This document shows positions 30,990 through 43,200 of a stretch of DNA of 64,000 nt, piece by piece. Both the position numbers and the translations under genes were made by a program. The notes beneath the pieces were generated by a model. The model was not told where the DNA came from. It saw only the letters and a program-made list of their open reading frames with translations, and did not search any database. The first letter of the stretch is position 1. Every line of letters starts with the position of its first letter. The stretch covers positions 62,001 through 126,000 of the IMG/VR virus record IMGVR_UViG_3300043410_001892; one strand, given 5' to 3'. The stretch comes from a virus.

Positions 30990-31631
30990 ATGATATTTAT
31001 CAATAATAAATATACCAACATCTATTTTAATATAATCAGATCTGCACAAATACGAGAGTCATTAACTGGATATACTGAAAAACACCATATCATACCAAGG
31101 AGCTTATGCGGCTCAAATAAAAAAGATAACTTAGTTATTTTAACTGCTAGAGAACATTTTATCTGTCACTGGTTACTTACTAAAATGGTAGCAGGCGATA
31201 ATCTAAGAAAAATGAAACACGGGTTATGGAGAATGTTAGTTCAAGGTGCAACTTTTCAAATAAGATATAAACCAAATTCTCGTACATATGAAACACTAAG
31301 ATACAAATACGGATCATTACGAAAAGGAATAAAAACTTCAGATGAGGTTAAAGCAAAAATCTCAAAAGCAAATAAAGGTAGATTAAAAGGTGAAAATAAC
31401 CCAATGTACGGAAATACTCATACTGCAGAATCTAGAAAGAAGATATCAGAAAAAGCACAAGGTAGAACGCCATGGAACTTAGGTGTCACACATACTTATG
31501 AAGTAAAACAGAAAATGTCAATATTAGCATTACAAAGAACAAAATATAAATGTGAACATTGCGGTGTAGAATGTGTTAAATGTAATTATAATAGATGGCA
31601 TGGAGCAAACTGTAAATCTATCGTAAGATAA
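30990..31631 (+). CDS. HNH homing endonuclease with NUMOD3 repeats
   Basis: 213 aa. The HNH nuclease fold shows KHHIIPRSLCGSNKKDNLV and LTAREHFICHWLLTKM in residues 30-75, with the paired histidines and asparagine. Two NUMOD3-type DNA-binding motifs follow (KISKANKGRLKGENNPMYG and SRKKISEKAQGRTPWNLG). The C-terminus has a Cys/His metal site (CEHCGVEC, KCNYNRWHGANC). AGGAGG precedes the ATG. It is a free-standing homing endonuclease without visible intron, placed between the neck-type gene and gp14. A GATAAATA octamer lies upstream. Homing enzymes usually cut the allele lacking them. Confidence 0.88.
   Translation: MIFINNKYTNIYFNIIRSAQIRESLTGYTEKHHIIPRSLCGSNKKDNLVILTAREHFICHWLLTKMVAGDNLRKMKHGLWRMLVQGATFQIRYKPNSRTYETLRYKYGSLRKGIKTSDEVKAKISKANKGRLKGENNPMYGNTHTAESRKKISEKAQGRTPWNLGVTHTYEVKQKMSILALQRTKYKCEHCGVECVKCNYNRWHGANCKSIVR
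30994..31001 (-). promoter_or_regulatory. Late promoter octamer GATAAATA for the neck-type gene
   Basis: GATAAATA on the minus strand, 97 bases before the ATG at 30896. It lies within the first codons of the HNH gene on the other strand. Confidence 0.4.
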
Positions 31632-33109: not shown

Positions 33110-34594
33110 ATGCAACATTTTTATGACGGTGCCATAAGACGGTACCTTACTCAAACAATTCGAGTTTTTAGTGAATTTACAGTACGATACGGTGACGGAA
33201 CGCTGCATCGTGTACCTGTCGGTTACGGTGACGGTGATCGGCAAACTACTAGTGTTATTAGACAAAATTCAGAAAACACTCTAAATTCAATACCACGTAT
33301 CAGTATATACATATATGGTCTTGATTTAGACCGAGATCGTCTTGCAGATTCAACATTTGTTAGTAAAAAAAGTATAAGAGAACGAGATATCAACGGAAAC
33401 GCTTACACTAATAATCGAGGTAGAAATTACACAATCGAACGCGTAATGCCAACCCCATTTAAATTAACTATGAAAGTTGATATTTGGTCTGCAAATACTG
33501 ATCAAAAATTACAAATTTTAGAACAAATTTTAGTGTTATTCAATCCAAGTTTAGAAATTCAGTCGACTGATAATTATATTGATTGGACGAGTATTTCTGT
33601 GTTAAATTTAGATAGTGTTGCTTGGACAAGTAGATCAGTTCCTGTAGGAAATGATAGTCCTATTGATATTGCTACATTAACAGTAGACTCACCAATATGG
33701 ATTAGTCCTCCTGTTAAAGTTAAACAACTTGGTGTTATTACTAAAGTTATTACTGGAATTACTGATGCAAATGCAGCAGGATCAACTGGATTTGGTACAG
33801 ACTATGTAGTACCTGATTATATTCAATCTGCACTGTTAACTGAAGTTATTTCGTGTGTAGAAAATTACACAATTGAAGTATTAGGAACACAAATCACATT
33901 ATACAGTTCACATGAATCAGATTTAGCAAATTACGTTTCATTTGATATGCCATCTCATAGCGAATATCCACGTAAATGGGAAGAAATATTTGAAAAATAT
34001 CCTAAAAAATTTATACCAGGAGTTACTCGTGTTTTCCTAATGCAACGCAATGGTACAGAAATTAATGGTACTGTATCACTTCATCCAACAGATGACGGTA
34101 TTTTACTAGTTGATTGGGATTATGATACATTAAATCCTAATACTGGTATTAACAGTCAAGGTTATTTAGATACCGATGATACAAGTTTGTATAATCAATC
34201 TCCGCAATATAGACCAAATAGCCCTGGAACATTTGATGCAATTATAGATCCGTTATCATATGATCCACATAGACCATTAAAAGAAAGCACAGATCAGCCT
34301 ATTCCAGTTGGTTTAAGATATTTAATAATTGAAGATATTGGTAGTGATATAAATGCCGACGGAGCAAGTGCTTGGAAATCTAATAACGGAAGTGATTTAG
34401 TTGCTCATGCTAATGATATTATTGAATGGACAGGCAGTCAATGGAATGTTGTTTTTGATTCGATACATGAAACAGATACTATGATTTGGCAAACTAATAC
34501 ATATACAGGTATACAATATCTATGGAATGGTATTTCATGGGTTAAAAGTTTTGAAGGAATTTATCCGGTGGGAAAATGGCGATTAGAACTGTAA
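33110..34594 (+). CDS. 15: Tail sheath stabiliser and completion protein (T4 gp15-like)
   Basis: 494 aa against 272 in T4. The N-terminal 200 residues match the gp15 pattern: FYDGAIRRYLTQTIRVFSEF, RVPVGYGDGDRQ, NSIPRISIYIYGLDLDRDRLA, TPFKLTMKVDIWSAN and LQILEQILVLFNPSLEI. The C-terminal 290 residues are an extension with Trp-rich phrases (IIEWTGSQWNVVF, YLWNGISWVKSFEG), similar to modules in gp14 and gp18. GAAGGAGAA precedes the ATG. The end overlaps the Nudix gene by 19 bases. Confidence 0.8.
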   Translation: MQHFYDGAIRRYLTQTIRVFSEFTVRYGDGTLHRVPVGYGDGDRQTTSVIRQNSENTLNSIPRISIYIYGLDLDRDRLADSTFVSKKSIRERDINGNAYTNNRGRNYTIERVMPTPFKLTMKVDIWSANTDQKLQILEQILVLFNPSLEIQSTDNYIDWTSISVLNLDSVAWTSRSVPVGNDSPIDIATLTVDSPIWISPPVKVKQLGVITKVITGITDANAAGSTGFGTDYVVPDYIQSALLTEVISCVENYTIEVLGTQITLYSSHESDLANYVSFDMPSHSEYPRKWEEIFEKYPKKFIPGVTRVFLMQRNGTEINGTVSLHPTDDGILLVDWDYDTLNPNTGINSQGYLDTDDTSLYNQSPQYRPNSPGTFDAIIDPLSYDPHRPLKESTDQPIPVGLRYLIIEDIGSDINADGASAWKSNNGSDLVAHANDIIEWTGSQWNVVFDSIHETDTMIWQTNTYTGIQYLWNGISWVKSFEGIYPVGKWRLEL

Positions 34595-35025
34595 CAGACA
34601 GTATTGTATGTAGTGGATCGTTGATTTATTCAAGATCTACTCATAGATTTTTACTCATTCAAAAGTCTTCAGGCAAACATCAAGGAACTTGGGGATTAGT
34701 AGGAGGCACAAATTTAGCCAACGAAAATCCCTGGCAGGGTCTTACCCGTGAAATTGAAGAAGAAATAGGCTTTTTACCAGACATTAAAAAAACTCTACCA
34801 TTAGAAAAATTTGTATCAAATGATAGTATTTTTAATTTTCATACATATTTTTGTTTAGTTGATAACGAATTTGTTCCAATTCTAAGTGATGAACATATTG
34901 CTTGGGGTTGGTTCAGTATGTCTGCATTACCAAAGCCAATACATCGAGGGTTAAATCTTAGTTTGCGTAATAAAATTATTCAAACTAAGATTCAAACTGT
35001 AATTGACATTATTGATAGTTTATAA
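34576..35025 (+). CDS. Nudix hydrolase
   Basis: 149 aa. The Nudix box is intact: GGTNLANENPWQGLTREIEEEIGF fits G-x5-E-x7-REUXEEXGU, giving the metal-binding glutamates. The surrounding fold is standard (SIVCSGSLIYS, FLLIQKSSGKHQGTWGLVGG, and AWGWFSM). Substrate is not predictable, but phage Nudix proteins act on nucleotide sugars, dinucleotides or oxidised nucleotides. The start lies 19 bases inside gp15. The stop shares TTATAA with the converging GT9-like gene, so no terminator separates the two operons. Confidence 0.9.
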   Translation: MAIRTVTDSIVCSGSLIYSRSTHRFLLIQKSSGKHQGTWGLVGGTNLANENPWQGLTREIEEEIGFLPDIKKTLPLEKFVSNDSIFNFHTYFCLVDNEFVPILSDEHIAWGWFSMSALPKPIHRGLNLSLRNKIIQTKIQTVIDIIDSL

Positions 35026-35943
35026 TTTTGCTTTAATATCAGCTAACATATTGTCAATTAGTCGTTTTGTTTCGTCTTCGTTAAAATCCATTGCAGTATC
35101 GTTTAGCTGATCAGCTTCAAACGACGAAAACATGTTAATTCTAATTGGACTATATCGTTTATTAAATCCTTCTTTTTCAATGATATTAAAATGATTTGGA
35201 TAAGTTACATTTTCAGCAAATGTACTTCCTAAAATTACAGTTCCCGGTGTATTAACTGCGTAAGCTAAATGTTGTCCTACACTATCACACCCTATAAAAT
35301 AATCAGCATGTTGAATAATTGAACCCCAAGTACGCAACGGAACATTTTCTGGGTGTCTTGTATATTCATTATTTGGTATTTGAAATTCTGACATACTGAT
35401 AATATTATAATACTTGCTTAATTCTTTTGCAATTGATATAAATGTAGATAAATTTAAACTTCTACTCATTGGGTCAATTACTGTATTAAGATCAGTGCAT
35501 TCTTCAGAACTGCGACCAAATGGTTGAATTACAATAGTTTTTTCTTTGTTAAACTGTTCTTTTGCTCTTAAACATGCTACTTTCCCAGTAATATCGTCTT
35601 GTTTGTTAAACATAATATTAGGTCGGTAATCAAAATCTTCTCTAATACTACCATTTATTAATTTATCAAATGCCTGTGAGATATTAATTTTTTGATTATA
35701 GTATTCATAATCAGCATACGGTTCTGGTATAATTAATTCACTACCTTTAATAATATTTTCAAATATGCCTTTAGTTGATGATTCGTACATCCTATCTTGT
35801 AATAACGGATTGCCTAATAAAAATTCAGACCCGCCATCAAGAATAATATACGAATCTGGGTTTTCAATAATAAACCGCTCTAACGCCGGAATAGCGCATA
35901 TTACTCTCCCCATACCACCGTTGATTAAAATTGTCTTTTTCAT
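35020..35943 (-). CDS. GT9-like glycosyltransferase (heptosyltransferase family)
   Basis: 307 aa. The shape is that of GT9 heptosyltransferases such as WaaF: an N-terminal Rossmann start (TILINGGMGRVICAIPAL), NPDSYIILDGGSEFLL, the middle strand TIVIQPFGRSS, and the C-terminal domain phrase GCDSVGQHLAYAVNTPGTVILGST, the site used by GT9 for its sugar-nucleotide donor. The gene is the last of the sulfate cassette and overlaps the kinase end by 80 bases, with GAGGATTT before its ATG. It may modify a phage or host surface glycan. Donor and acceptor are unknown. Confidence 0.7.
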   Translation of the reverse strand: MKKTILINGGMGRVICAIPALERFIIENPDSYIILDGGSEFLLGNPLLQDRMYESSTKGIFENIIKGSELIIPEPYADYEYYNQKINISQAFDKLINGSIREDFDYRPNIMFNKQDDITGKVACLRAKEQFNKEKTIVIQPFGRSSEECTDLNTVIDPMSRSLNLSTFISIAKELSKYYNIISMSEFQIPNNEYTRHPENVPLRTWGSIIQHADYFIGCDSVGQHLAYAVNTPGTVILGSTFAENVTYPNHFNIIEKEGFNKRYSPIRINMFSSFEADQLNDTAMDFNEDETKRLIDNMLADIKAKL

Positions 35944-36379
35944 AAATCCTCAATTTGTTTTCATTATTTACACAGTATGATAGCAAGATATCTCTAATAT
36001 GGTTTGACCAAAATTCTGCATCTTGTGTGCTAACTCTAACATTGTAAGTTATTGGCGGTTGAAATATTTGATTAGTATTTTGGTATTTACAAAATAAACA
36101 TGTATCAACAAATACTGTAAAATCTGCATTAAATAAGTTTCTTATTTTAGCAGTAGGCGCAATAAAATCACAAATAACATATTTTGATTTAGATTCATCT
36201 GCTAATGATTTCATTCTAATGCCTTGTCGTAACCGACCTTCATCACTAAAATCCCAATCATTATAAAGTGATCGAATAGTATCACCGTTATAATATGTTG
36301 AATTTGGTAATTTTTCTATTAATTTACGAGCTAATGTAGTTTTACCGGCCCCTGATAATCCCATAATTAAAATTTTCAT
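35864..36379 (-). CDS. Adenylylsulfate (APS) kinase-like P-loop kinase
   Basis: 171 aa. The fold resembles APS kinase, which makes PAPS from APS and ATP. Seen are Walker A (GLSGAGKTTLA, matching the GLSGAGK of APS kinases), YYNGDTIRSLYNDWDFSDEGRLRQ (matching DGD-x-IR and FS-x-x-DR), then VICDFIAPTAKIRNLF (matching the ISP-x-x-x-R segment). The typical length is about 200 aa, so this is short. The last 26 residues lie inside the next gene in a different frame. Its neighbour is a sulfotransferase, which uses PAPS. The enzyme specificity is inferred from motifs. Confidence 0.7.
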   Translation of the reverse strand: MKILIMGLSGAGKTTLARKLIEKLPNSTYYNGDTIRSLYNDWDFSDEGRLRQGIRMKSLADESKSKYVICDFIAPTAKIRNLFNADFTVFVDTCLFCKYQNTNQIFQPPITYNVRVSTQDAEFWSNHIRDILLSYCVNNENKLRIYEKDNFNQRWYGESNMRYSGVRAVYY

Positions 36380-36897
36380 ATATTAAAAAAGTCAGTAGCA
36401 CTGTTTCTAATGTTTTCGCATTTATCGTATAATGCAACATAGTCGTATCCTAACTCTTCAAATGCTTCGTGTCTAATAGCATTTTCAAAATCAGTTTTAG
36501 CCTCAACGGTATAACCCCATCGTCTATAAGCTTCTTGTCGTATTTCTAACGATTGATCATTTACTGCTTCTGGCGGATATCCAAATGTTCGATACGCAAG
36601 TCTACGAATAAAGAAAAACGGACTTTCGCAAGCTTCTAGTTTAATACCAGTAAATGCCCAATATCGCATATTATAACTTAAATCTGGATCAGGTAATGTA
36701 AATGTGTTTAAAGCCATACTTGCTTCCCATCGAATATCCGGATCTGGATCAGTTAGTGCCGCTTCTGTAAATCCGTTTGTTCGATATGCATATTCACGAA
36801 TTTGGTAATCTGGGTCGTCGTATGCTTCATCTGTTATTCCGTTTTCCTTGTAGTATTGTAGTCGTTGTTTTGTTGTTAACTCACTCATTTCTGTCAT
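36376..36897 (-). CDS. Short helical solenoid of about 22-residue repeats
   Basis: 173 aa built from roughly eight repeats of about 22 residues. The consensus begins I-R-x-x-A-Y/F-x-x-x-G-Y/F and ends x-x-E-A-x-x-D, as in IREYAYRTNGFTEAALTD, IRRLAYRTFGYPPEAVND and IRQEAYRRWGYTVEAKTD. The pattern is similar to LRV or HEAT-type solenoids that bind proteins, but I do not know the exact family. It sits between the sulfotransferase and the APS kinase with overlapping ends on both sides, so it may scaffold these enzymes. GGAG precedes its ATG. Confidence 0.6.
   Translation of the reverse strand: MTEMSELTTKQRLQYYKENGITDEAYDDPDYQIREYAYRTNGFTEAALTDPDPDIRWEASMALNTFTLPDPDLSYNMRYWAFTGIKLEACESPFFFIRRLAYRTFGYPPEAVNDQSLEIRQEAYRRWGYTVEAKTDFENAIRHEAFEELGYDYVALYDKCENIRNSATDFFNI
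36380..36860 (-). repeat. About eight 22-residue coding repeats
   Basis: Tandem units start with Ile-Arg and an Ala-Tyr/Phe pair, followed by Gly-Tyr/Phe and an EA-x-x-D end. They are degenerate in DNA, so the repeat is best seen in the protein. Confidence 0.6.
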
Positions 36898-37678
36898 AAA
36901 ATTTTCTCCAGTATTCTAAATCTGAGTATCGTTCTATAATATCATCAGGCAAAAGCATATGATTATTTATTTTGTTAACACTTGGTCGAACATCATGTAA
37001 TCCTGGTAGATTAACTTCGGCATCGCAACCGTTATCGTTAACTGTTGGAAGATTTGTAAAATCGTGTTTAAAATTTTCTATTTCTAAAAACTGATATAAT
37101 GCATTAATCTCAAATTCTGTATTTGAAACTAACGATTCATATTCTATCAAATATATAGAATGCGAATATTTTGAATGTATTGCTTGTTTTAACGCATTTA
37201 AACTATATCCAACTACACCATTCCAATCCATTAAGCATTCAGCTCTTGAATATACATTTACATATTGTGAACCATATACTTGTGAATATATTGAATACGG
37301 ATTTTTTCTGTATATAGTTTCAAACGAATTTAATATATCACATATTGAGCGTACACAGCAAATAATTTTTACATTAGGCATTGCGTTGTATAATATATCA
37401 ATGTGTCCAGCCCACATACGATTTGTATCAAAAATTATTTCATTTGGTATAGATTCATAGACTGTATCAAACACTAATTTTATAAGTTTTTGTGTATGTT
37501 CAGTAGTAACTATATGATTTGTTCCTGAATAATCAGGTTTAAGAAGTGAATCAACTAATGGCCCTACTCCTGATGTAATATTTGCATAGCATTTTGGATT
37601 CTGTGATAAGATTGACGATAATAATGTTGACCCAGATCTTGGTAATCCAGATATAAAAAAATATTGTTTGTTAGACAA
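36881..37678 (-). CDS. PAPS-dependent sulfotransferase
   Basis: 265 aa. The P-loop-like 5'-phosphosulfate-binding motif LPRSGSTLL lies near residue 12. The 3'-phosphate-binding strand IICCVRSICDILNSF follows near residue 105 (VRS then a serine downstream). IYLIEYESLV and FLEIENF complete the fold. The family transfers a sulfuryl group from PAPS to a carbohydrate or other hydroxyl acceptor. The start codon is TTG, read after GGAGGAG, which is itself encoded in the last codons of the fibre gene (Arg-Gly-Gly-Ala). It overlaps the fibre stop by eight bases, so sulfation and fibre synthesis are coupled in one operon. Confidence 0.85.
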   Translation of the reverse strand: MSNKQYFFISGLPRSGSTLLSSILSQNPKCYANITSGVGPLVDSLLKPDYSGTNHIVTTEHTQKLIKLVFDTVYESIPNEIIFDTNRMWAGHIDILYNAMPNVKIICCVRSICDILNSFETIYRKNPYSIYSQVYGSQYVNVYSRAECLMDWNGVVGYSLNALKQAIHSKYSHSIYLIEYESLVSNTEFEINALYQFLEIENFKHDFTNLPTVNDNGCDAEVNLPGLHDVRPSVNKINNHMLLPDDIIERYSDLEYWRKFYDRNE

Positions 37679-40241
37679 GTGCTCCTCCTCGATAGCCTTT
37701 TGTTACCCATGTTACATTGCTGTTTCCGCATACTGCTGCTCCTCCGGTACCGCCCGGTCTTCCTCCACCATAATACACAGTTGTATTTTGAGCAGTACTT
37801 TGTCCGCCACCCTGGCCACCAGAACCGCCATATGTGCCTCCACCGCCACCACCTCCACCGCCGAGTCCGCCAGTAGAACAAAACCCACCAGATGATCCAC
37901 CAGAACCGCCAGTTTGCGTACAGCATATAGTATCAGTAGCATTAGTAGTACATGCTTTCCACCCTCTGCAGCCTCTTCCTCCTGGATTACATGATGATCC
38001 AATGCCTCGTCCAAATCCACCATTACCGCCATTGCCAGCGTAGTAATACGAATATGATGAGCACCAACCAGCTGCGGTACCGGCAGTACCTGCTGTTGAA
38101 CCAGCATAGTTACCGGATGTTTTATATGCTGCTCCATATGTTCCACCTGCTCCTCCTGGTATACCACCACCGCCTCCACCGCCACCACCGTGCCACGCGT
38201 CGCCACCACCACCACCGCCACCACCACCGCCAATTGTGCAGTTGTTTATTATACGCAATGGGATATTAGTCCATATTGCTGGGCCACCATTAAAACCAGC
38301 AACACCTGTGCTTGTTCCTTTACACCCTCTTCCGCCAGCACCGCCGCATCCCATTACTGTTCCATAATTAATAAATGTAAGTGATTTACGAGCAGGCATT
38401 GTGATTCCACAGAAACAGAACATAGGATTAATGTTTGATGAGCATAGTCTGCTACCAGAACCTATACAAACATTAACTGCTTTTATCCCGTCCCATCCAT
38501 AATTAGATAATGTAGAACTATTAAAGAGTATGTTACCTGAACATGAATAGTATGTTATGTTTAAAACAGTTGGTACTCCGGCAATTGTTGGTCCAGTTTC
38601 GTATGTTTGAAATGAAGAACCAGTAGCTGTACATGCAGTTAACGTGTAATAGTAGGTATTTCCGTTAGTTAATGGGCCCACACATACTGGAGATACTGTA
38701 GTAACTGTATTTTTAACAGTGTCTAAATATGTTCCACCGTTAGCTATATTTGCATTTGATTGCGAAGTATATGCACGAAGTGTATATGAGTTAATAACGC
38801 TATATGGGTCATATGGTACATTAAATAACAAGTATGTACATTGATTATTAGGTTCTACTATAATCGATGACGGTGCAGACGGGGCTGCACGAACAGTTAC
38901 CGCAGACGATGTTGCAGTACCTCCGGGGTTTGATGCTTTTAAATAAACAGTATTATCAAGTGCCGGTGTTAATCCGCTAATTGTAAAATTTGTAGACGAA
39001 AGCTGTGTACTAATATAGAAAAATACTAATGAACCAATAGATCCACTTGCAGTAGTCGTAATTGGAGGGCCGTTAAATGTTGCAGATAACTGAAATTGAT
39101 TAGAATATACTGATGTATTAACAATATAATATGTAGTTGGGTTAACATATCCAGTTATTGTTCCTGGACTCGTACCAGAAACCATTATAGTAGCACCTCG
39201 TTCATAAGAAACTGTAGTAGTTGTAGTAGTAAACCAACCATTTGTTACTGCGTTAATTGATACACTAGATAATATAGTCGCGTCATGACAATATGTAAAA
39301 GTATATCCACTTGTAGATCCACCATTTGTAGTAGTGATTGCTGCTCCGCCTTGTGTTGCTGATAATTGAAATGTAGTAGGATTAGAAGATCCTATTACAT
39401 AGTAAGTTTTAGGATTTGAGTATCCAGTAATAACTGCTGCACCGGTACCACTTATTATTACTCTACAACCAACTGAGATATTTGGATAATAAATATCGCC
39501 AGTACCGCCGCATGCAAAATTCCCAGTTGTGCTTGTAATAGTTACACTTGATAATGGAAAAATACCAATATTAATAGGTACAAGTGTGCTTCCAACCCAT
39601 GCAGTATAATACCCACCGGATCCTGTAAAATTAAGATATGCAGAATTTGATCGTATATTACCGGTTGAACTATATACTGGTGCATTAGGTATTGTCCATG
39701 CAATTAAAACATCTGATGATGTTGATCCAGACGAATTAGTTGCATATACATACATATTATATGAAGTATTTGCAACAGGTGATAGATTAGTTGAACTATT
39801 AATAGTAGTTCCAGTGTATGCTGGTGTAACACCGGTTATTAGCGTAGAATTATTATAAATTGAATAAGTTAATCCTGAAACATTTGTCCATGATATTATA
39901 AATGATGTTTGCGTTGAACTAGAATATGCCAATCCTGTTGGTGCAACAGGTGCAGTTAATACTGTATAGTTTGCCGAATCAGTATATGCTGTTCCTAAAA
40001 ATGCTCTAACTCTCATTACATATGATGTATTTCCAGTAAGTCCACTAATTGATGAACCGGTATTGCTAGTAGCTCCTACAACTTCAACACCTGCTTTATA
40101 AACCTTATAAGTTATGCCCGGAATTGATGCAGCATCCCATGTAAGAATAAATCCTGTACTTGTAATCGACGATGCAGCTATATTTGTCGGTGGAGGTGGT
40201 CCGCCGGCACTACCTACTAATATTAAGTTATTTCCACTCAT
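37671..40241 (-). CDS. Fibronectin-type-III and polyglycine tail-fibre adhesin
   Basis: 856 aa from the ATG at 40241 with AAGGTAA upstream. Residues 15-200 are two or more Fn3-type modules (SSITSTGFILTWDAASIPG, TGLAYSSSTQTSFIISWTN). Further beta-rich modules run to about 500. The C-terminal 220 residues are extremely glycine-rich, with runs of nine or ten Gly, and resemble the polyglycine-helix tip of gp38-type T4-like adhesins. About 25 cysteines are concentrated there, which is unusual. It is probably the receptor-binding tip. It follows the 1231-aa fibre protein and precedes the sulfotransferase. Confidence 0.75.
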   Translation of the reverse strand: MSGNNLILVGSAGGPPPPTNIAASSITSTGFILTWDAASIPGITYKVYKAGVEVVGATSNTGSSISGLTGNTSYVMRVRAFLGTAYTDSANYTVLTAPVAPTGLAYSSSTQTSFIISWTNVSGLTYSIYNNSTLITGVTPAYTGTTINSSTNLSPVANTSYNMYVYATNSSGSTSSDVLIAWTIPNAPVYSSTGNIRSNSAYLNFTGSGGYYTAWVGSTLVPINIGIFPLSSVTITSTTGNFACGGTGDIYYPNISVGCRVIISGTGAAVITGYSNPKTYYVIGSSNPTTFQLSATQGGAAITTTNGGSTSGYTFTYCHDATILSSVSINAVTNGWFTTTTTTVSYERGATIMVSGTSPGTITGYVNPTTYYIVNTSVYSNQFQLSATFNGPPITTTASGSIGSLVFFYISTQLSSTNFTISGLTPALDNTVYLKASNPGGTATSSAVTVRAAPSAPSSIIVEPNNQCTYLLFNVPYDPYSVINSYTLRAYTSQSNANIANGGTYLDTVKNTVTTVSPVCVGPLTNGNTYYYTLTACTATGSSFQTYETGPTIAGVPTVLNITYYSCSGNILFNSSTLSNYGWDGIKAVNVCIGSGSRLCSSNINPMFCFCGITMPARKSLTFINYGTVMGCGGAGGRGCKGTSTGVAGFNGGPAIWTNIPLRIINNCTIGGGGGGGGGGDAWHGGGGGGGGGIPGGAGGTYGAAYKTSGNYAGSTAGTAGTAAGWCSSYSYYYAGNGGNGGFGRGIGSSCNPGGRGCRGWKACTTNATDTICCTQTGGSGGSSGGFCSTGGLGGGGGGGGGTYGGSGGQGGGQSTAQNTTVYYGGGRPGGTGGAAVCGNSNVTWVTKGYRGGALV
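37690..38340 (-). repeat. Polyglycine-coding low-complexity tract
   Basis: A glycine-codon-rich tract codes for the tip of the 856-aa adhesin, including runs of nine or ten glycine codons. Its reverse strand reads as false proline-rich open frames. Confidence 0.8.
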
Positions 40242-40258
40242 ATTTTTAATTACCTTTT

Positions 40259-43200
40259 TTATGAAATTCCGGATCCGGAAATGACCCAAGAAGTAGAACC
40301 TATCTTAAGTAAAGTAGCAAGTCCGGATGCTCCTAATGTTCTTGTTTTTGTAGTATCTGAAGTTCCTGCCCAAAATAAATTATCAGTTGTTGTAATAGAT
40401 AATGCAGCTGATGTTACATCATTAACAATCGTAATTGCAGTTCCTATTGGAAATGCAACTGACGAGTTTGCAGGTATTGTATAAGTATGCCCAGTTGTTG
40501 CACTACTATGGAAAACATGTTTTCCAGAATCAGTTAATGCAAAACTGTATGATCCTACTTGTGCATTTTGAGGTACTTCTAAATAACCAACAGTAAATGT
40601 TCCAGCCGGTAATGTAGCATTTGTAGTAGCCGTTGATGTTAATGTTATCGAATTTGCACCAGCTGTTATTAATGAAGAACCATTTGCAATTGTTAGTGTA
40701 GTAGTTCCAGATGCTCCAGGATCTGTAATCACTAAGTTATTTACTTTAGTAAATGTACCAGTGCTTGCAGTAGTTGAACCAATTGGTGTATTTTGAATAC
40801 TTAAAGCTTCAAATCCAACATTACTAACCCATCTTCCTGATGTAGATGACCAAGTTAATGTTTTATCAGTAGCACCTTTTAATGTAATACCGCCACCATT
40901 TGCCGTTGCATCAGACGGAGTAGTAACTACACCTAATTCTATATTTTTATCATTAACTTGAATTGTAGTAGAACTAATAGTAGTTGTTGTTCCGGATACG
41001 GTTAAATTACCATTAATAGTTGTTGTTCCTGATGACGAACCAATTGATATAGTTGTCGCAGCACCAAATGCATTTATAGTTGTTGCTGTAGTATTAAACA
41101 CTGAAAATACAGTTGAATCTGTAACAACTGATGTTGTAAATGTTGGGCTTGTTGAAAGTACATTATTAGTTGAACCGGTTGATGTAGTAACACCTGTACC
41201 TCCATTAGCAACTGCTAATGTTCCAGTAACGCCAGTTGTTAATGGTAACCCGGTACAGCTTGTTAATGTACCTGATGTTGGTGTTCCTAATGCAGGTGTT
41301 ACTAATGTTGGACTTGTATTGAACACTAATAAACCAGAGCCAGTTTCATCTGAAATAACACCAGCTAATTCAGATGAAGTTGTTGCAGCAAATACTGATA
41401 ATTTGTTTGTTGTGTAAGTAACGGTACCACCGCCACCTAATGAAATTGTTGCTGAATCAGTTCCACTAAATGTAAGAGTATTGTTTATACCAAGTGTTTT
41501 TCCATCTACAATAGTAATTGTAGATCCTGTAGCTACTGCAGTAAATGCAATCTTATTAATTGAAGTTGCAGTTGCAGCACCAAGTACTGGAGTTGTTAGT
41601 GTAGGACTTGTTGATAACACGTTGTTACCAGAACCAGTTGATGTAGTAACACCTGTACCGCCATTAGCAACTGCTAATGTTCCGGTAACACCAGTTGTTA
41701 ATGGTAATCCAGTACAGCTTGTTAATGTACCTGATGTCGGTGTTCCTATTGCTGGTGTTACTAATGTAGGACTATTACTAAACACTAATGATCCAGTACC
41801 AGTTTCATCTGAAATAACACCAGCTAATTCAGATGAGCTTGTTGCAGCAAATACTGATAATTTGTTTGTTGTGTAAGTAACGGTTCCACCAAGTCCAAAT
41901 GACACTGCTGCAGCACCGGTAGCATCGTTTGAAGTTAATGTTATTGAATTACTAACTAACAGTGTTTTACCGTCTGCAATAGTTAATGTTGATCCAGTAG
42001 CCGGAGCAGTTATTGTAACTTTGTTAATTGCACCTGATGTTAATGAACCGTAAATTGTCGCTGACGTAGTGCTTGCAGTTCCAATAACTGTAGTGTTTGG
42101 TCCTGCTCCAATTGCATTTGCACCAATAACAATTGTATTACTGTCTGCCGGAGCAGCACTAGTTGTATTATAACCTATAAATGTGTTATTATTACCGCTA
42201 GTTACTGAATTTGATCCATTTGCATACCCTGCATACCATCCTACTGCAACGTTGCCGGCACCGTTTAATACATCGTGTAGTGCATAATGGCCTACTGCAG
42301 TATTGTTGCTAGAAGTTGATGTTTTAAGAGCATAATAACCAATTGCAATAGAACTTGATCCAATTAAGTTAGCCGATAATGCACTACTACCAATAGAAAT
42401 ATTATTACTTCCAGTAGTATTTGCAAGTAATGATTGATGACCAAATGCAACGTTATCTGAACCAGTTGTTGCTGCTTTAAGAGTCTGATATCCAGATGCG
42501 GTATTTCTTGCACCACTTGAAACTGCAGCAATTGACGATAAACTTTGATATCCAAATGCAGTATTTGTTGCTACTGAGTTAGCACCTAACCCAACTGTGA
42601 GTGTATGCAGAGATGCATCTGTTGTTGTTGTAATTGTGCTTGACCAAGTACCTGTTGTAATTGTACCAACTGAAACTAATGATGATAATGTTGTTACATC
42701 AGTATTAACTAATGTACCAGTAGTAGGCAATGTAACAGTAGTTGCACCAGTAGAAGTTAGTGTAATTGAATTTGCACCAGATGTTGCTAATGTTGATCCT
42801 TGTGCTAATGTTAATGTTGCACTTGTTGTTGGTTCAGTGATTGTAACTTTGTTTACTGATGTTGCAATTAATCCACCAATTTTTAAACTATCATATGTAG
42901 CTGAAGTAAAATCAACTACATTTGATGCAGGAGCAGTAGGTACTCCGCTGAATATTTTCCACACAGAATCACTTGCGTCTCTAATAACCCCTGTATAATA
43001 CTGTGTTGAATTTTGTCTATAAGTTGAAACGATACCAATATCAACTAGATCTTGTAAATTAGTGTAACCGGAAAATACGTACGAATTAGAAATTCCTTTA
43101 TTTAATGTTACAGTATTTTTAATTGTAGTTGCACCGGTGCTTGCACCAATATTAACTACAGTACCTGCACCTGCAAAGTTTACAGTAGTGGCAGTTGTAT

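Follow-up and report, generated by a model that had tools for sequence, protein, structure and literature searches.

Does a phage that carries a sulfotransferase gene directly behind a tail-fibre gene also encode the enzyme for the sulfate donor? The locus that raises this question belongs to a large uncultured phage and lies in a 64-kb window (bases 62001-126000 of the 372,173-bp IMG/VR virus record IMGVR_UViG_3300043410_001892), where T4-like structural genes surround a cassette of four genes of the minus strand behind a fibre/adhesin gene. The order is a sulfotransferase (SULT), a repeat protein, a kinase resembling adenosine 5'-phosphosulfate (APS) kinases (KIN) and a GT9-like protein. The initial annotation had described four genes without gaps and proposed that the kinase supplies 3'-phosphoadenosine 5'-phosphosulfate (PAPS) to the sulfotransferase. 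All four open reading frames (ORFs) were recovered on that strand, each overlapping the next, and chance ORFs were ruled out by their conservation in relatives.

36881-37678, minus strand: SULT, sulfotransferase, 265 amino acids, TTG start
36376-36897, minus strand: HEAT-like repeat protein, 173 amino acids
35864-36379, minus strand: KIN, APS-kinase-like kinase, 171 amino acids
35020-35943, minus strand: GT9-like (heptosyltransferase-like) protein, 307 amino acids, starting 80 bp inside the KIN ORF

We consider it somewhat probable that the cassette represents a sulfation module encoded by the phage, in which KIN supplies PAPS to SULT, expressed with the fibre genes and directed at a surface glycan or the fibre. 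This reading builds on the gene order, the overlaps, the protein families, the conservation of the PAPS site, the kinship of KIN to APS kinases and the linkage of KIN and SULT; from these we infer PAPS as the product of KIN, co-transcription, the acceptor and the timing.

Co-occurrence of KIN and SULT in phages

Viral contigs were scanned with KIN alone, and the best 80 of at least 463 relatives were taken as KIN loci. Another 80 loci were fetched by the SULT profile alone, and the uvsX-like gene of the window served to collect 80 control loci (747 kb, against 1,089 kb for the SULT loci). KIN was located within 8 kb of SULT in 38/80 SULT-selected loci and in 0/80 controls (Fisher p 2e-14), the SULT loci being phylogenetically non-independent and collapsing at 60% identity into 22 SULT clusters, of which 9 have KIN. 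No control locus contained KIN, SULT or the KIN-associated nucleotidyltransferase HIGH described below. Conversely, SULT homologues were present in 33/80 KIN-selected loci, and overlapping SULT/KIN stop/start pairs were seen in several loci of unrelated phages.

Sulfotransferases of other families also adjoin KIN. Among 105 genes lying within about three genes of KIN, the top families were Sulfotransfer_1 (16 members) and Sulfotransfer_3 (13); the set of more distant genes used for comparison omitted the SULT of L011, L021 and L025 (5-6 genes from KIN), so that its count of none is inexact and the uvsX control is the fair test. One protein cluster matching Sulfotransfer_2 (2.7e-10) is encoded directly downstream of KIN in L069 and its kin, and another with a weak Sulfotransfer_1 match adjoins KIN in other phages.

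Phage cysC genes (K00860), which likewise encode short APS-kinase-like proteins and are enriched in large phages, have been read as auxiliary metabolic genes of assimilatory sulfate reduction (PMC9529941, PMC10914622). The Pfam APS_kinase match of KIN would agree with such a role in boosting the host pathway, which we nevertheless regard as very improbable here: the virus record holds no family match to PAPS reductase or ATP sulfurylase, the recurrent neighbour of KIN is a sulfotransferase while PAPS reductase is outside the 25 commonest neighbouring families, and the KIN gene sits in the fibre region. For the KIN family, the linkage to sulfotransferases thus argues against the assimilatory reading. 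The function of phage sulfotransferases has been described as unclear (PMC10580990), and a literature search, mostly outside subscription journals, found no paper joining a phage cysC-like kinase and a sulfotransferase into a PAPS/sulfotransferase module. The recurrence of this pairing in many unrelated phages points to sulfation machinery made by the phages themselves, and not just to a boost of host sulfur metabolism.

SULT as a PAPS-dependent enzyme

The hidden Markov model search called for in the initial annotation placed SULT above the Pfam cut-offs of both Sulfotransfer_3 (7e-18, 66.1 bits against a cut-off of 27) and Sulfotransfer_1 (1e-11); among the PHROG families it matched phrog_27463 (6.6e-54). 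The PAPS-binding residues are retained, and in an alignment of 20 homologues they are invariant at the following sites.

37619-37648, minus strand: 5'-phosphosulfate-binding motif GLPRSGSTLL; P13, R14, G16 and T18 invariant
37325-37351, minus strand: 3'-phosphate-binding motif R110..S118; both residues invariant

Structure models were built from alignments made solely of the window and the fetched contig loci. The AlphaFold2 model of SULT (predicted local distance difference test, pLDDT, 89.8; predicted template-modelling score, pTM, 0.88) was searched against the PDB and matched tyrosylprotein sulfotransferase 1 (TPST1) best (1e-9), followed by other PAPS enzymes, the top matches being sulfotransferases bound to 3'-phosphoadenosine 5'-phosphate. 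As judged from motifs, fold and Pfam match, SULT is a PAPS-dependent sulfotransferase and a new member of that group.

The nearest solved structures by profile were likewise TPST1/2 (4.9e-15). Together with the overlap of the SULT and adhesin genes, this would be compatible with SULT being a protein-tyrosine sulfotransferase that acts on the fibre itself, an explanation we hold to be improbable. With about 20% identity, TPST is no more than the closest fold among solved structures; the acceptor site of SULT is unlike that of TPST1/2, and the neighbouring genes encode glycan enzymes. In addition, the region after the 5'-phosphosulfate-binding motif, where the TPST catalytic Glu lies, is not conserved in the SULT alignment.

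Sulfotransferases of the cyanophages S-SKS1, S-SRM01 and S-SCSM1 are homologous to SULT (25-33% identity), and that of S-SRM01 is encoded near a glycosyltransferase and a nucleotide-sugar epimerase. Unlike the window phage, the records of these three phages gave no KIN by tblastn.

Relationship of KIN to APS kinases

KIN matched Pfam APS_kinase (PF01583) over its N-terminal part only (1.4e-9, 38.6 bits against a cut-off of 21.1), and all eight members of its family that were scanned passed this cut-off. A profile of 35 family members was compared with solved chains, and APS kinases were best, from 1.6e-11; the 12 best chains, and 24 of the 27 best, were APS kinases or PAPS synthetases. Nicotinamide riboside kinase was tried as a candidate identity and rejected, its profile match being far weaker (2.4e-4). 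The model of KIN (pLDDT 88.4, pTM 0.77) gave APS kinases as 50/50 top matches in the PDB fold search, with TM scores of 0.57-0.72 on the query. A PADLOC scan of KIN yielded nothing beyond weak matches.

36338-36361, minus strand: P-loop GLSGAGKT, from the alignment
36224-36289, minus strand: N-G-D..R36..DWDF44S..GR49..Q52; invariant, aligned with the APS-contact residues of APS kinases

KIN shares with canonical APS kinases (CysC; the APSK domain of PAPSS1) the P-loop core, GD..R, FS..R, FxxP and the second aromatic residue. Its R36, F44, R49, Q52 and aromatic F/Y99 align with R66, F75, R80, N83 and F165 (P. chrysogenum numbering), which we take from established APS kinase structures to be the APS contacts; R, F, R and one aromatic are thus retained, with an invariant Q instead of N83. 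In a tree, the KIN family formed a single group beside the canonical enzymes (100/100), and intermediate forms with NKDLGFSEADR (DLGFSEADR of the canonical enzymes) are encoded directly behind SULT, for example in L160. By sequence and model, KIN is a divergent APS-kinase relative constituting a distinct phage family, and it very probably binds an APS-like nucleotide.

Three further observations concern KIN. The KIN ORF of the window extends 80 bp (35864-35943, minus strand) into the GT9-like gene, which is read in a different frame; as relatives have shorter kinases (142-153 amino acids), the C-terminal ~30 residues of the window KIN may result from read-through. Phage proteins of ~310-330 amino acids (L117:8759-9742, L102:12314-13237) carry a C-terminal degenerate KIN copy that no longer has the P-loop; they are in some cases encoded immediately ahead of an intact kinase and could be pseudokinase partners. 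Directly after the SULT-KIN pair of L160, an HldE-like nucleotidyltransferase (GCFDILHRGH) begins (L160:2811-3119).

An adenylyltransferase-like partner of KIN in phages and marine bacteria

Longer KIN relatives possess a C-terminal HIGH-superfamily nucleotidyltransferase (GRWQPWHxGH...ISATKIR), which elsewhere is a separate neighbouring gene. In 45/128 KIN loci, HIGH is either joined to KIN or encoded close to it, and among the SULT-selected loci it never occurred without KIN. Within the 64-kb window HIGH was sought and was absent, and the window KIN has no such fused domain.

L086, 6772-7602; L054, 7995-8810; L044, 8425-8787; L173, 6366-6773: HIGH-type protein resembling nicotinamide mononucleotide adenylyltransferase (NMNAT-like), fused to or beside KIN

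The long relatives resemble PAPS synthetase (APSK plus ATP sulfurylase) in having the kinase N-terminal and a HIGH-superfamily adenylyltransferase C-terminal; their HIGH domain, in contrast, is short and nearest to NMN adenylyltransferases (1.2e-9), not to ATP sulfurylase. This affinity, together with the frequency of the pairing, opens another explanation, which we regard as possible but doubtful. KIN would make no PAPS and, with its NMNAT-like partner, would be a kinase-adenylyltransferase for another adenylylated cofactor (nicotinamide adenine dinucleotide-like or other); it would come close to sulfotransferases through shared exchangeable islands, and SULT would use host PAPS. In phage Bhz60, HIGH has a NADAR gene as its neighbour, and SAR11 and SAR86 genomes carry the KIN/HIGH pair beside other operons, away from sulfotransferases, which also fits. 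The profile and fold of KIN, however, are APS-kinase-like, and a common island explains neither the KIN-SULT stop/start overlap in unrelated phages nor why sulfotransferases of several different families repeatedly adjoin KIN.

In the ten SAR11/SAR86 genomes with the pair, Sulfotransfer_3 proteins were present in 9/10 and Sat in 0/10; this comparison involves small numbers and several incomplete genomes. The near-complete SAR11 genome G019 has a sulfotransferase and no KIN/HIGH, and carries canonical cysD and a cysN-cysC fusion. In four genomes with both sulfotransferase and KIN/HIGH (G027, G061, G088 and G103), neither Sat nor a canonical CysC was seen, nor a clear CysD; a single intermediate PF01507 match of G088 lies in a 497-amino-acid frame. 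A replacement PAPS synthetase would be expected to show such a pattern, but in the wider survey the association is weak (see below). We also raise, as an unlikely extension, that KIN and HIGH form a compact non-orthologous PAPS synthetase, HIGH being a sulfate adenylyltransferase of a new kind, in many phages and in SAR11/SAR86 lacking canonical ATP sulfurylase/CysC. Such phages, including the window phage with the kinase alone, would then sulfate surface glycans or fibres in infection.

Weighing phage-encoded sulfation

In the sulfation module that we favour, KIN, as a relative of APS kinases whose lid is shortened, would phosphorylate APS at the 3'-OH to give PAPS. SULT would take this PAPS and transfer the sulfate to a hydroxyl group of a surface glycan or a virion fibre, while the GT9-like enzyme may add or prepare a sugar on the SULT acceptor. 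APS would come from the host; in other phages and in SAR11 it might be provided by the NMNAT-like adenylyltransferase that is fused to KIN or encoded beside it.

Several results weigh against this module. KIN scored 31.6 bits against the NCBIfam apsK equivalog cut-off of 138.7 and fails it. Compared with CysC, the first Asp of DGD is replaced by N (NxD), the N83 position is an invariant Q, and the RDxKGLYKKAR lid segment (~14 residues) is deleted in every phage KIN member aligned. The main doubt comes from the longer relatives, in which KIN is fused to an NMNAT-like adenylyltransferase, and from SAR11, which carries the two with no SULT adjoining them; kinase and adenylyltransferase might together act as a compact PAPS synthetase or produce a different cofactor. 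The virus record (372 kb) also has no match to ATP sulfurylase or PAPS reductase families. KIN was not nearby in 42/80 SULT loci, and a recognisable sulfotransferase was missing at ~18/43 representative KIN loci. In SAR11, no sulfotransferase adjoins KIN, and the co-occurrence of KIN/HIGH with Sulfotransfer_3 is weak (25/60 vs 15/58).

The observation in the initial annotation is therefore confirmed, and its interpretation is partly supported and strengthened on the central point. The APS-kinase label holds by Pfam, profile and fold and is qualified by the separate clade, the lost lid and the NxD motif; the functional link of kinase and sulfotransferase proved much stronger than could be known from the window, with the limit that the SAR11 kinases have no sulfotransferase next to them.

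The reciprocal linkage joins phage cysC-like genes and sulfotransferases into one module, whose predicted output is sulfate esters at the surface of the phage or of the host. This would, if true, be a new phage surface chemistry with possible roles in adsorption, superinfection exclusion and receptor masking, and it could explain how PAPS is made in streamlined marine bacteria.

Genomic setting in related phages

Within the lineage, the slot between the adhesin and neck genes is swapped wholesale, and in relatives it holds a carbamoyltransferase, FkbM and other methyltransferases, and GT2/GT4 proteins. In other phages, 2-oxoglutarate-Fe(II) oxygenases and radical SAM genes are found in the KIN islands, and KIN/SULT islands also carry glycosyltransferases, FkbM methyltransferases and carbamoyltransferases. 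These contents and the fibre-side placement accord better with an island for surface modification than with central sulfur metabolism.

Genes upstream of SULT encode mainly RCC1-repeat or tail proteins, the former being probably fibre or adhesin parts. In one phage group, portal or head-tail adaptor genes stand there instead of a fibre gene, so that the proposed fibre association applies to the lineage and most T4-like relatives and breaks down in some phages. SULT beside portal/head-tail adaptor genes, with no kinase nearby, was noted in L119-L120, L124, L131, L141, L155 and L156. RCC1-repeat proteins of ~400 amino acids, often in tandem, directly precede SULT in L054, L076, L146 and others.

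GT9-like and HEAT-like proteins

The GT9-like protein matched phrog_8954 (1.9e-92). By itself it remained below the Glyco_transf_9 cut-off (E 0.007, 16.1 bits against 22), while 13/13 members of its family matched Glyco_transf_9 (best 4e-8) and no other Pfam family; no match of the family was found in the PDB. A homologue was present in 29/80 SULT loci and in 0/80 controls. The fourth cassette gene thus appears distantly GT9-like, which upholds the earlier label for the family rather than for the window protein. Its suggested role of supplying a glycan is not sustained, as such a protein transfers sugars and would not alone supply a whole glycan.

The repeat protein resembles HEAT (PF02985, 6.9e-5), slightly below the cut-off. 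Its homologues occurred in 9/80 KIN loci, 1/80 SULT loci and 0/80 controls, and are nearly confined to close relatives of the island.

Two fusions of SULT to TPR and a GT9-like domain adjoin KIN (L062:5731-7434 and L068:3169-4944; 568 and 592 amino acids). A trio of carbamoyltransferase, GT9-like protein and sulfotransferase recurs in the phage islands of L025, L040, L123, L139, L151, L158 and L163.

Gene overlaps, expression signals and flanking genes

37671-40289, minus strand: fibre/adhesin gene, its end overlapping the SULT start
37684-37689, minus strand: Shine-Dalgarno sequence AGGAGG for SULT, within the adhesin's last codons (...YRGGALV*), with a 5-nt spacer to the TTG
34576-35025, plus strand: convergent NUDIX hydrolase gene (NUDIX 9.9e-15), island boundary outside the cassette

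Successive genes from the adhesin to the GT9-like gene overlap by 8, 17, 4 and 80 bp. The TTG start of SULT with its ribosome-binding site inside the adhesin gene, as first annotated, was borne out, and the start, the Shine-Dalgarno sequence and the overlap recur in L007 (identical context) and L010, indicating a conserved arrangement. Promoter and terminator scans of the cassette detected nothing above shuffled sequence; co-transcription with the adhesin gene is suggested by gene overlap and common strand alone. The adhesin has an fn3 N-terminus (1.7e-10) and a gp38-like glycine-rich C-terminus (GP38 6e-5) by Pfam, and matched phrog_2056 (tail fibre, host specificity; 1e-8). At the other end, the NUDIX boundary of the island is conserved within the lineage.

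Between the neck genes of the window, an HNH-endonuclease-like ORF was noted at 30990-31631 on the plus strand. It is present in the relatives L006, L020 and L021 and not in L010 and L016, and from its sequence it looks like a mobile homing endonuclease.

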